From contig JAPMOS010000061.1 of the NCBI GenBank assembly GCA_027972325.1, positions 164,644-228,643 on the forward strand: a stretch of 64,000 nucleotides of DNA, in the 5' to 3' direction. Position numbers and translations under genes: made by a program. This stretch comes from Paratrimastix pyriformis (lineage: Eukaryota > Preaxostyla > Paratrimastigidae). Positions 1 through 44,224 of the stretch are shown here, piece by piece (position 1 is the first letter of the stretch; each line of letters starts with the position of its first letter). Under the pieces are notes generated by a model that did not search any database, was not told the DNA's origin, and saw nothing but the letters and a program-made list of their open reading frames with translations.

Positions 1-405
1 GGCATGAGCGGCGGTCCGAGATGAGACACAAAAAACGACAAACAGACACAAAAAACGACAAACAGACACAAAAAACGACAAAGACAAAATGACATCATCC
101 GCAAAGGCCAGTGCGATGACAGCGGGGTCCGGCATTTGGCTGCATCCGGGGCTGTGATTTGAAAGCACACAAAAAGGGGTTCCCGTTCCCTTTTTTCTCC
201 ATCCAATTCTATTCTCGTCTTTCCATCTTTTCTGAGGGCCTTTTGATCAATAATCGGCCGAAATTTGGGTGCGGTTTCCCGGTAACTGTCCGCGTTTTGG
301 GGACAGTTCTTCCAAGAACACGAGGTTCCCCACCCCGTGTATCAAAAATACAAAAAAGGAGGGATGGATGGAGGGGGATGAAGGGGGGGGGGCGGCAGGT
401 GAGAC

Positions 406-3400
406 CTGGGCGCCCGCCTGCAGCTCGGGGACGATGTTGCTGTTGAAGAAGTCAATCACGGTCTGCAGGTGGTCCGTCTGGGTGACGCCCTTCTGCAGGG
501 TGAAGCCCTGTGGGGTGGCGAGCGGACGAGCGGGATGGGACGGGACGGGACGGGATGGGACGGGACGGGACGGGATGGGATGGGACGGGACGGGATGGGA
601 CGGGACGGGACGGGATGGGACGGGACGGGACGGGACGGGACGGACGGGACGGGACGGGACGGGACGGGACGGGACGGGATGGGGATGGCGGAGTGGTGAG
701 AACGACGTCCCGCCACGCATACATCCAGGGAAGGGCGGCCGAAGGGAATGACAACGACTGGGGATACCCCCAAATTGACTCCTTCACCGAGTCTCTTCTG
801 ACGATTTTTGTCACACAGAACCCATCACCCACTGCCGCGGATGACATGAGATTTCTTTGGCGTTCATGCTGTGGGCCGCTCGCTCCCCGGGGCGATGTCA
901 TCAAGGGGAATCGGAGTGGCACAAGAGGCATGGAGTGTGGTGGGTGGCGGGTGGTGGGTGTCGGGTGGTGGGTGGCGGGTGGCGGGTGGCGGGTGGCGGG
1001 TGGCGGGTGGCGGGTGGTGGGTGTCGGGTGTCGGGTGTCGGGTGGTGGGTGTCGGGTGTCGGGTGGCGGGTGGTGGGTGGCGGGTGGCGGGTGGTGGGTG
1101 GCGGGTGGTGGGTGGTGGGTGGCGGGTGGCGGGTGGCGGGTGGTGGGTGGCGGGTGGCGGGTGGTGGGTGGGACGGGGGGGGGGGCGGGACCTTGGCGCA
1201 GAGGGACATGATGACCAGGATGGCGGTGGTCTTGTCGCCCCACTTCTCGGCCGGGTTCTGGGCGTAGCTCTGCAGCAGGCTGGCCACAACCTGAGGTGGG
1301 CGAGACGGGCGGGGTGGGAGGGCAGTGTGTGGATCATAGATATGCCCATATGGCCACCATCCGACCATATATATAACCAGATGACCCTATATCACCCATG
1401 GTGGGGGGCAGGCGGACCTGGAGCATGAGGGTGGTGATATTCTGCTGGAAGTGCTTGCACAGGGCCCGAACGAGCTCCATCGCGGCGCGGCGGCGAGTCC
1501 CCACGTCCGAACCCTGCCCCGTGGTGCGCCGTGCCCGGTGCGGGTGTGAAAAGCAGAGCGGATGCGTGTGAATGGATGGATGGATGGATGGATGGATGGA
1601 TGGATGGATGGATGGATGGATGGATGGATGGATGGATGGATGGATGGATGGATGGATGGATGGATGGATGGATGGATGGATGGATGGATGGATGGATGGA
1701 TGGATGGATGGATGGATGGATGGATGGATGAAGAGGATGGATGGATGGATGGATGGATGGATGAAGAGGATGGATGGATGGATGGATGGATGGGTGGATG
1801 GATGGATGGATGGATGGATGGATGGGGAAGAGGATGGGGGGGCGGGTATGAGACGGGGCAAGGCAAGGCGGGGCGGACCTCCGTGTCGAACTGGATGAAT
1901 TGCTTGGGCTCGTCCTCAAACATATCCGCGTCGGCCTCTGCCACCCCCCCCCCCCCCCCCCCCAGACAAACAGAGAAACGCCAGAAAAGACATCAGTCAG
2001 ATACCGCCAAAAGGGGTGGAGTCCAACAGTATGATCATCTGGCCATGACCATCCATATATGACCATCCATATATGACCATCCATATATGACCATCCATAT
2101 ATGACCATCCATATATGACCATCCATATCTGACCATCCATATGACCATCCATATGACCATCCATATGACCATCCCCATATGACCATCCATATGACCATCC
2201 ATATATGACCATCCATATATGACCATCCATATATGACCATCCATATATGACCATCCATATGACCATCCCCATATGACCATCCAAATGACCATCCATATGG
2301 CCATCCACATGGCCATCCATATGACCATCCATATGAACCACCCATATGAACCATCCATATGAACCATCCATATGAACCATCCATATGAACCATCCATCCA
2401 TATGACATGAACACTTTCTCTCAAGGACGGACCGGTGAGCCTGAGGTTGGGCAGGATGACCCGCTCAGCCAGATCGCGCATGCCGGCCTCGTTGTTGAAG
2501 AGCTGGTGGTGAACACCCTCGGCGATGGCAACCAGGAACCGGATGGCATTCGTCACGAGCTACGCAAACACATCATACATCACATATACCGGGAGAGAGA
2601 GAAGAGAGTGGTTGAAGAGCTGATGGTGGACACCCTCCGCGATGGCAACCAGAAACCGGATGGCGTTCGTCACGAGCTGCCCAGACACACATCGCATATC
2701 ACATCACATACAACAGTCGGGTGAGAGAGAAGAGAGTTGTTGAAAGTGGTGGTGGTGAACGCCCTCGACGATGGGAACCAGGAACCGGATGACGTTCGTT
2801 ACAAGCTGCCCAGACACACATCACACACATCACATACAACAGTCGGGAGAGATTTTTGCGGTGGAAAAAGGACTCCGGGCCATCAAATCCTTATTTTGAT
2901 AAGGTTGACAGCCGATTTGTCAGATCGGCTGATCAAATGGTGCCCTCAATCCCCTGGTGCCGACAATGGCTTCCTTCCTTCCACTAACCTCACCCCGGGG
3001 TGGATGTTAGCCAGACCTTGTCGAGGCGCTGGTGGGACCCCGAGCGCATGAGCAGGTTCCAGATGGCGGTGACGAAGGTCCCCAGGAAGGGGGCCATCTC
3101 TTCCTCGTAGCGCTGGGTGTACAGCACCACAATGTTGACGATCAGCGACTGGATCCGGTCCAGGATCGAGGCCTTGTCCGAGTCCTGTGAGGGGAGGGGG
3201 GGATGGGGGAATGGGGGAAGGATATGGGGGGGGGGGGGGGGGGGGGATGGCAAGGGTAGAAAGACGAGAGTGAGCGATGTGTGTGTGCGTGTGTGGAGGA
3301 GAGGGAGGGAGGAGGGAGGAGGGAGGGAGGAGGTACGCAATTTCACCCAACTTTGGCCGCCGCCGCCATCACCACCACCATCACGGAAATATGGGGGGGA

Positions 3401-4505
3401 GGGGGGGGAGGGGGGAGGGAGGGGGGACCACCGACCTCGCACAGGGCGTCGCACTGCACCACGAGCAGCTTGTGCAGGCTGGTCATGATGGGTTCGAGGT
3501 GGTCTTCGAAGAAGGCCGGCAGCCCCTGGCAGTTCAGTGAGTAGTAGATCTTCAGGCAGAGCTGGTAGCACTGCAGGGTCTGCATCAACGGGGTCAGTTG
3601 GGCCGGGGCAGGCCGGGTCGACCCCAGGGCGGCCAGCTGGGACTCGGCCGCGGCCGTGGTTTGCTAAACGAGTGCCCCCCGGGGGGGTTGAGACCATGTG
3701 ATGAGGTGATGAGATGTGAGACCTGAATAAAAGTGAGCAGCGGCTGCTGGATAATGTCCAGCACGTACTTAATCTGGAGCAGAAGCTCGTTGCATTCGTA
3801 CTCGTGGCGGAAGCTGGGGATGAATGATGACAATGGTCGTGAATTCAAAGTGCCCATCCACCGGGACGGACCGCTTCAGAACGAGGCGAACGATGGTGAG
3901 CATAGTGTTGATCAGGGCAATATCGGAGGTTTGTTGCAGCTTCGCAACCAAATCCTATCATCGGGGCGGTGGGTGGTGTTGGTGGGGTGCGTGCGTTACG
4001 ACAGACAGGAAGGAAGTTCCAGTTCTTCGGGAAGTCAGTCTTCGAAATGAACTCAATCGAGGTCAAAAGCTGCGCCTGGGCCTTGGAGGGGCCCCGGAGC
4101 ACCTCGGCAATCAGCTGATCCTTGATCCGCTTACGGGAATCCTCGTCAATGAAAACATCAGTGTGTTCATCTTCGGACTGCGGTGTCGGCGGCAGAAAAG
4201 GACAAGGATGTGAGAAACGAGAGGGGTTGTACAATGGAACACAGACAGGAACCCATTTTGCCAGAATAAAGTTCTTGAACAAAATGGCGCAGCACTGCTG
4301 CATATCGGGCGTTGGGGGCTGAGAGATGACTTGGAGGAGGTGCAGCGGGTACTGCGGAATACGCTCCATGGATTCGCGGAGCTTTTCGGCTGGTCGAAGA
4401 TAGGTCTGAGAAGGAAAAAGAATAGGGACACCAAAACTGACCCTCCTTGATGCGCGCCGGATCACCGCTGGACAGATTTTGCAAGAAGGGCACCAGAGTC
4501 TGCAT
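406..4505 (-). CDS. CSE1: Exportin-2 (CSE1/CAS), N-terminal half; gene continues past the window start
   Basis: HEAT-repeat exportin that returns importin-alpha from nucleus to cytoplasm together with Ran-GTP. Twelve exons fit by phase and family similarity: 4505-4442, 4389-4253, 4177-4007, 3954-3872, 3813-3723, 3663-3436, 3184-3017, 2559-2433, 1937-1879, 1513-1418, 1290-1192 and 507-406. They total 475 codons, against roughly 970 residues for the whole protein in animals. Landmarks in order are [90 protein letters not shown] and [10 protein letters not shown]. The start is the ATG whose frame leads into the first family segment. From 405 to 1 only intron is visible. Introns hold minisatellites and an exon triplication, listed separately. 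No frameshift is seen in the placed exons. Family assignment is firm; exon ends are inferred. Confidence 0.93.
530..683. repeat. GGGAC/GGGAT pentanucleotide array in a CSE1 intron
   Basis: About 150 bases of tandem CGGGA and TGGGA units lie between CSE1 exons 507-406 and 1290-1192. All six frames stay open across the array, giving artificial Pro-Ser-Arg or Gly-Arg-Asp frames that are not genes. Confidence 0.9.
937..1172. repeat. 7-base GGGTGGC/GGGTGGT/GGGTGTC array in a CSE1 intron
   Basis: A heptamer minisatellite with three mixed variants fills most of the intron beside exon 1290-1192. The variants are interspersed and not in blocks, which suggests repeated unequal exchange or slippage. 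The long His-Pro frames across it are artefacts. Confidence 0.88.
1572..1836. repeat. (ATGG)n tetranucleotide array in a CSE1 intron
   Basis: A nearly pure ATGG array, broken twice by an AAGAGG interruption near 1730 and 1765, lies between exons 1937-1879 and 1513-1418. Confidence 0.92.
1944..1963. repeat. C20 homopolymer beside a CSE1 acceptor
   Basis: Twenty C on the plus strand read as poly-G on the coding strand, a few bases upstream of the acceptor of exon 1937-1879. Most other long homopolymers in the window are poly-C on the coding strand, so this one is the exception. Confidence 0.8.
2041..2405. repeat. ATGACCATCCAT(AT) minisatellite in a CSE1 intron
   Basis: Tandem units of about 10-12 bases (ATGACCATCCAT with optional AT insertions) change gradually into ATGAACCATCC units toward 2400. 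The block lies between exons 2559-2433 and 1937-1879. Confidence 0.88.
2491..2860 (-). repeat. Three tandem copies of the 5' part of one CSE1 exon
   Basis: The segment encoding [16 protein letters not shown] occurs three times in tandem, about 117-129 bases apart, with inferred exon starts at 2559, 2676 and 2805. Only the copy starting at 2559 continues into the rest of the exon and has a usable donor (at 2432). The other two stop matching after about 70 bases and have no donor there. They look like decayed exon copies left in the intron, each with its acceptor-proximal flank. Confidence 0.85.
3226..3246. repeat. G21 homopolymer in a CSE1 intron
   Basis: Poly-G on the plus strand, so poly-C in the pre-mRNA, in the intron between exons 3663-3436 and 3184-3017. 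GGGA-rich low-complexity DNA surrounds it. Confidence 0.8.
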
Positions 4506-43195: not shown

Positions 43196-44224
43196 ATGCC
43201 GAAGGAGGCCGCTCGCAAGCCCGTTGCCAAGAAGACCGCCGGCAAGAAGCCCGTCCAGCAGAAGAAGGAGTCCGAGTTCGCCAACCTCATTGCCAAGCGC
43301 CCCCGTTCCTTCCACGTTGGCGGTGACGTGCACCCCCCTCGTGATGTCTCCCGCTACGTTAAGTGGCCCAAGTACATCCGCCTCCAGCGCCAGAAGAAGG
43401 TTATGTACCAGCGCATGAAGACCCCCGCCATGATCAACCAGTTCACCCAGACCCTTGACAAGCACGTCGGTTAGTAGATATTGCTCCTTGCATCGATCCA
43501 GACTCACCAATATTTCATTTAGCCACTGAGATGTTCAAGCTCCTCCACAAGTACCGCCCTGAGGACAAGAAGGCCAAGAAGGAGCGTCTCCTGAAGCTCG
43601 CCGAGGCCAAGAAGGAGGGCAAGCAGGAGGAGGCCCCCAAGAAGCCCATGACCCTGAAGTGCGGCCTGAACCACATCACCACCCTCGTTGAGCAGAAGAA
43701 GGCCAAGCTCGTCGTCATTGCTCACGACGTCGACCCCATCGAGGTACGTGGGTTTGGATGTTTGTGCTTTGCACCATCCATGTTAGGCGAGTGAGTTCCA
43801 ATTTTTATTGGACCCCTCCTCGACCGATGACCCCACTTGTGGTTTCCACACCTCTGTCCCCAAAGGGTTTCGACATGTTATTCACCCGTCTCCATTTTCT
43901 CATTCTGCATCATAGCTCGTCATCTGGCTGCCCACTCTGTGCCGCAAGATGGACGTCCCCTACTGCATTGTTAAGGGCAAGGCTCGCCTTGGCACCCTGG
44001 TTGGCCTCAAGACCGCCACTTGCCTGGCTCTGACTGACGTTAAGCCCGAGGACAAGAAGACCTTCTCTGACCTCGTTGCCGTCTGCCGCACCAACTACAT
44101 CGACCGCGCTGAGGCCATCGTCCGCCAGCAGGGCGGCGGGAAGCTTGGTGTCAAGTCCGCCAAGAAGATCGAGAAGCGCCAGAAGGCTCTCGCCAAGGAC
44201 GAGAAGCAGCGCGAGAAGATGTAA
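43196..44224 (+). CDS. RPL7A: 60S ribosomal protein eL8 (L7a)
   Basis: Large-subunit ribosomal protein of the L7Ae/eL8 family that binds rRNA during 60S assembly and in the ribosome. Three exons keep frame: 43196-43469, 43523-43743 and 43916-44224. Introns have donors GTTAGT and GTACGT and acceptors TTTAG and CATAG. Motifs: basic N-terminus, [73 protein letters not shown] and [20 protein letters not shown], which carries the L7Ae fold. The length of about 268 residues is normal. Codons are strongly biased to C or G endings, as expected of high expression, and this is the only gene here whose donors look conventional. Intact. Confidence 0.97.

Follow-up and report, generated by a model that had tools for sequence, protein, structure and literature searches.

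The 5' tip of the U1 small nuclear RNA (snRNA) and the GTRAGT donor, or 5' splice site, that it reads are treated as nearly fixed in eukaryotes, and compensatory base changes in the two partners are known from designed U1 suppressors, which are laboratory mutants. In Paratrimastix pyriformis, an intron-rich flagellate of the Preaxostyla (Metamonada), the U1 genes and the donors have both changed, and we are highly confident in reading this as a natural, compensatory rewriting of the pair, a state of the genome rather than a product of the laboratory. The unusual donors lie in CSE1, a gene at the left end of a window of 64,000 nucleotides (positions 164644-228643 of contig C454), and in other genes of the assembly, which holds 56,060,509 bases in 495 contigs. 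The genome as published has 56,627,582 bp, 633 scaffolds and 60.94% guanine plus cytosine (GC) (PMC10703272).

The nearest precedents are the additional, C-rich U1 of a diplonemid (PMC12621601) and a U1 change that was proposed, but not found, by Parker et al. in 2023 (PMC10581693). In the diplonemid S. specki, a natural U1 gene likewise has a changed 5' tip, but this C-stretch copy stands beside a canonical U1, whereas all eight copies found in P. pyriformis are changed and the donors have shifted too (PMC12621601). Parker et al. described +4 A/U switches in the Saccharomycotina and suggested that a change of U1 position 5 to A might compensate for +4 A to U; as told in the text of that large yeast survey, compensating U1 changes were sought and none was seen, U1 ACUUACC being invariant where U1 was found (227/230, plus 9/10 outgroups) and the U6 ACAGA box kept in 240/240 (PMC10581693). 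P. pyriformis differs from these yeasts in that its U1 did change, at position 6 as well, and a METTL16-like protein is present. In Cyanidioschyzon merolae (cited in PMC10581693), a donor-facing snRNA base evolved too, but there it lies in the U6 ACAGA box and here in U1. Larvaceans also have odd donors, but the U1 tip reported for them retains its complementarity to canonical sites, and duplication of U2AF and changes in N6-methyladenosine are invoked for their non-canonical splicing (PMC13326754). Closer to home, the oxymonad Streblomastix strix, another member of the Preaxostyla, also conserves U at +4 and G at +5; its +3 is a conserved A (GTATG), while that of P. pyriformis is C or T (PMC1501061). 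A literature search, with subscription papers outside its scope, found no report of the U1/donor rewrite in P. pyriformis, and in the main text of the genome paper "snRNA", "spliceosom" and "introns" are absent, "intron" occurs twice (intron hints and a reference title) and "splic" once, in a reference (PMC10703272).

The public CSE1 model is presumably a product of the genome project's gene prediction, which was RNA-trained and RNA-hinted (PMC10703272), so further genes were added by a method that is neutral at +3. Introns were placed by protein-to-DNA spliced alignment, which requires GT (or GC, at a cost) with AG and puts zero weight on +3. The sample is a set of 15 genes rather than the whole genome, namely CSE1, CCT1-8 and six HSP70 genes, with eL8 read apart. 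The reference was the public gene model for CSE1, a transcript protein for CCT4 and CCT1, and a solved homologue for CCT2, 3, 5, 6, 7 and 8 and the six HSP70 genes. The CCT4 reference, eukprot GAFH01001239.1, agrees with the genome at 459/459 aligned residues, and the CCT1 reference, GAFH01001226.1, at 532/533. Judging from this identity and from their names, which are those of open reading frame predictions, we infer that both are products of P. pyriformis transcripts, GAFH being what we take to be a transcriptome record. Introns with a flank sum <10 on either side, or a margin <5, were dropped.

In the 84 introns kept, +3 is C in 69, T in 14, A in one and G in none. Elsewhere in the donor, -1 is G in 70/84, +1 is G throughout, +2 is T in 83 and C in one, and +5 is G in 73/84. 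At +4 there are 41 T, 30 C, 11 G and 2 A, and at +6 there are 39 T, 30 C, 10 G and 5 A. The pattern does not depend on CSE1, as the 65 kept introns of the other genes have 50 C, 14 T and 1 A at +3, and the 16 introns placed with transcript proteins in CCT4 and CCT1 have 9 C, 6 T and 1 A. The 39 dropped introns show the same trend (33 C, 3 T, 2 A and 1 G, with a GC start in six). The placement of one CCT1 intron among those kept is ambiguous: forcing GT-AG ends (GTCGTT) yields S at a residue that is E in the transcript protein. The donor may instead be GTCTGT, its acceptor then being off AG by one base, and +3 is C both ways. The original prediction that GTC stands in place of GTA or GTG is borne out by spliced alignment, in CSE1 and in other genes, the latter having GTT as well.

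By their ends these are U2-type introns (83/84 GT and one GC, with GT or GC and AG imposed by the alignment), but the +3 purine usual for that type is found in only 1/84, plus the GTACGT of eL8. In these loci, the strand that carries the gene has 3455 GTN trinucleotides, of which 1245 are GTC, 1225 GTG, 743 GTT and 242 GTA. A purine therefore follows GT in 1467/3455 (42%) of the background and in 1/83 of the kept GT donors (binomial p ~1.5e-18). GTG is nearly as common as GTC in these loci, yet it supplies no kept donor, so the absence of G at +3 is not compositional. Counts of hexamers made blind to genes in the window are weak, with GGTCTG seen 67 times against 61.6 expected, GGTCCG 52 against 39.2, GGTTTG 24 against 28.8, GGTAAG 9 against 6.8 and GGTGAG 57 against 63.6, and the donor signal becomes visible only after introns are placed. 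The CTRAY branch motif is present in 7/84 kept introns.

The other partner of the pair is the U1 snRNA. A search with the Rfam U1 model, in which 41 of 992 first-look candidates were scored, gave at least eight matches on eight contigs, each over model positions 1-166 (E-values 3.7e-13 to 2.0e-10); one of the genes (L001), aligned to Rfam U1 over positions 1-166 with its stem-loops, gives an E-value of 7.6e-15. All eight miss the Rfam gathering score of 69.5 bits, the best reaching 60.2, and they are U1 by descent, below the curated cut-off. Every one of the eight starts with AUACAGACCUUG and shares the tip ATACAGACCTTG, and the canonical tip AUACUUACCUG is in none. The change from AUACUUACCUG to AUACAGACCUU consists of U to A at position 5, U to G at position 6 and G to U at position 11. 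The original prediction had guessed at an altered U1 5' end and proposed that the gene be found and its 5' end read; going by the genes, the eight matches are changed at the two positions facing donor +3 and +4, and the changes run in the direction of pairing with GTCTGT. A canonical U1 elsewhere in the assembly finds no support in exact-pattern counts: the canonical 11-mer ATACTTACCTG occurs 0 times on both strands of the 56 Mb (33 and 24 times for the reversed-pattern control), and ATACTTACCTT occurs once, outside all eight U1 matches (control 6). Outside this genome, the U1 19-mer was found 0 times in viral contigs and once in other collections, in a Desulfosporosinus contig; this match is judged to be chance, since about two such matches are expected in 257 billion bases.

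The motif CCCATAA stands at -59/-60 of all eight U1 matches, a pattern that was picked after the sequences were read. It is also upstream of three of three U2 (-59/-60), three of three U5 (-53/-54) and four of four U6 genes (-66/-67), all four U6 genes also having TTATMAGG at -32. That the distance in U1 is like that in U2 speaks for the placement of the U1 5' end, which is consistent, and for intact promoters, and the copies of U1 have the appearance of live genes. As an observation in its own right, CCCATAA at a fixed distance in all 18 snRNA genes read (L001-L012 and L052-L057), together with TTATMAGG in U6, is a candidate promoter code of the lineage.

In the usual register, U1 position 6 faces +3, position 5 faces +4 and position 11 faces exon position -3. 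G6 pairs with C at +3 and wobbles with U, and A5 pairs with U at +4. P. pyriformis is like the canonical U1/GTRAGT system in its full-length model match, its register and its C4, A7, C8 and C9 contacts, and differs in having A5G6, U11 and GTY donors rather than U5U6, G11 and GTR donors. With the register fixed, the observed tip makes on average 6.81 of 11 Watson-Crick pairs and 0.72 G.U pairs with the 83 GT donors, compared to 5.35 and 0.59 for canonical U1, and the mean duplex energy is -8.47 kcal/mol compared to -4.20. When all 16 dinucleotides were tried at U1 positions 5-6, AG came out on top in Watson-Crick pairs and took second place both in energy and when G.U pairs were counted too.

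The rewrite would work as follows. The U1 RNAs, whose 5' end as expressed, modifications included, we infer from the genes, would carry the 5' end AUACAGACC, and their pairing would drive the choice of donor. The optimal donor would become G|GUCUGU, with GUU tolerated through a G.U wobble at +3, where a purine would be nearly barred. Once U1 leaves, U6 with its unchanged ACAGA box would read the same CUGU letters. A stepwise path from GTATG can be envisaged, in which U1 position 5 would go to A first, followed by A to C at +3 together with position 6 to G.

Of course, several observations weigh against this account. GG at U1 positions 5-6 would fit better than AG (-10.26 kcal/mol, and 7.88 versus 7.53 pairs including G.U) because C is common at +4, and this C (30/84), which is unpaired with A5, is the main misfit. 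Where pairing could extend, A is not favoured at +7 (11/84) and T only slightly at +8 (27/84). The trade-off expected between +3 and +4 is not significant, T at +4 accompanying T at +3 in 9/13 donors and C at +3 in 31/69 (p 0.14), nor is a dependence between G at -1 and G at +5 (p 0.68). The cognate 11-mer AAGGTCTGTAT is found 36 times in the genome, eight of them in the U1 genes, compared to 19 for its control; some of the other sites are paired about 12 kb apart and may be repeats, and the count is uninformative. Donors with A at +3 are real, namely a transcript-backed GTATAT and the GTACGT of eL8. On the side of method, intron ends other than GT or GC with AG are invisible to the alignment, and the filters removed 39 of the 123 introns placed, leaving the 84 in 14 genes.

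The strongest competitor, though in our judgment an unlikely one, is that U6 was the driver, in that the donors first drifted toward a match with the ACAGA box, where ACAG can pair with CUGU, and U1 came after or is of minor importance. All four U6 matches read GATACAGAGAAG with the usual ACAGA box, keep the sequence ACAGAGA and are unchanged (GATACAGAGAAGATTAGCAT). ACAG forms four pairs with 20 of the 83 GT donors, three with 33, two with 25 and one with 5, which means that 53/83 pair at three or four bases. However, the preference for G at -1 (70/84) fits C9 of U1, though U5 could contribute, and U6 is unchanged where U1 is changed in all eight matches, so U6 alone cannot explain the change in U1.

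With the compensatory rewrite of U1 as the preferred reading, a further idea concerns how the two RNAs divide the work. The letters that U1 (which favours GURAGU) and U6 require at +3 and +4 differ in part in most eukaryotes. In P. pyriformis, the word AUACAGA is common to the U1 tip and to seven U6 bases around the ACAGA box, and the two RNAs could thus use identical letters to read the donor. That first recognition and hand-over use one Watson-Crick code is a proposal that we hold in even balance. If true, only one constraint would act on the donor, and METTL16 would be retained in the absence of the +4 A that it is tied to in yeasts. A METTL16-like fragment with the motif FCMCNPPFF (L050, C332:38824-39153) has U6 snRNA (adenine-43-N6)-methyltransferases as its best solved matches (E-value 9.7e-12). 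METTL16 is linked to the +4 preference in yeasts (PMC10581693); in P. pyriformis a METTL16-like protein is present, yet +4 is A in only 2/84 donors.

Could U1 A5 be chemically altered, for example to inosine, and so read both C and U at +4? The counts at +4 favour pyrimidines and tolerate C, but an A.C mismatch combined with a GC mutation bias also accounts for the C, and this proposal, drawn from sequence, seems quite improbable. Still less probable is a mixed system, with a canonical U1 or a U12-type spliceosome for some of the introns and GTC as the mark of one class. In its favour are the two donors with A at +3 (GTATAT and GTACGT), U1 counts that are lower bounds, and the scope of the work, in which U4, U11 and U12 were not searched for. 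The U12-type donor is (A/G)TATCCTT, and GTATCC was found in 0 of the kept donors, AT donors being outside the reach of the method. Against it, 69/84 kept donors are GTC, the canonical 11-mer is absent from the assembly and the single ATACTTACCTT lies outside the U1 matches. Lastly, it is hardly credible that a genome of about 60% GC (59.9% in the loci analysed) simply drifted to C at +3 or that the introns were misplaced, because although GTC is the commonest GTN in the loci (1245/3455), the 1225 GTG there gave 0 of 84 donors, the transcript-backed junctions agree with the pattern and U1 changed to match the donors.

Other parts of the splicing machinery were also looked at. U2 has nine matches over the cut-off, with the usual GUAGUA kept in the two copies read, and U5 has seven matches, with the CCUUUUAC loop kept in the one copy read. 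A LUC7 homologue is present. For U1C, a six-frame search with zf-U1 (PF06220) gave a WBP4-like protein as the sole match (L043, C86:24809-24916); U1C may have been missed through introns splitting the gene, or it may have been lost. U1-associated proteins are reported to be nearly absent from the metamonads of one study (PMC6679479). As a natural experiment, P. pyriformis bears on the rewriting of an RNA code that many sites have in common, on the division of donor choice between U1 and U6, and on METTL16. At a practical level, gene prediction and donor models that were trained on GTR will perform poorly in this lineage.

In CSE1 itself, the reference (P0121, "putative Importin alpha re-exporter [Paratrimastix pyriformis]", 1063 residues) is identical to the genome at 778/779 aligned residues over the window and 4.8 kb to its left, the remainder of the protein falling beyond this DNA. 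Its spliced alignment gives 19 introns with GTC donors in 19/19, and 12 of them have their first base inside the window. All 12 are on the minus strand: intron 1 (4390..4441, donor GTCAGT at 4441), intron 2 (4178..4246, GTCTGT at 4246), intron 3 (3955..4006, GTCTGT at 4006), intron 4 (3814..3871, GTCCGT at 3871), intron 5 (3664..3722, GTCTCA at 3722), intron 6 (3185..3435, GTCGGT at 3435), intron 7 (2560..3016, GTCTGG at 3016), intron 8 (1938..2432, GTCCGT at 2432), intron 9 (1514..1878, GTCCGC at 1878), intron 10 (1291..1417, GTCCGC at 1417), intron 11 (508..1191, GTCCCG at 1191) and intron 12 (1..405, GTCTCA at 405), the last being 440 nucleotides long and running 35 bases past the left edge of the window. 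Eleven of the 12 donors originally read from the letters were right; the second, GTTCCT, sits a few bases upstream of the real GTCTGT, so the bias toward GTC stands and the count of C at +3 rises from 11/12 to 12/12. Intron 7 contains, at 2560-2830 on the minus strand, a tandem duplication about an exon start: the beginning of the exon that follows (QLVTNxIRFLVxIxEGVHH) is repeated there twice more, with slight alterations. Simple repeats (GGGAC, GGGTGGC, GGAT and ATGACCATCCAT) swell the CSE1 introns at 530-680, 940-1190, 1560-1840 and 2030-2400.

The two eL8 introns, placed on the plus strand by reading frame and eL8 homology, have the donors that had been read for them at 43470 and 43744. 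The first (43470..43522) has GTTAGT, with a T at +3 that belongs to the G.U wobble class, and the second (43744..43915, 172 nucleotides) has the exceptional GTACGT, with A at +3. The intron printed for Rpl7a, the same gene, of Trimastix pyriformis is also 172 nucleotides long (PMC1201135). Finally, an HSP60-type chaperonin, left out of the donor counts and perhaps an organelle form, has an apparent intron inside its matched stretch (L036, C51:70448-71011).

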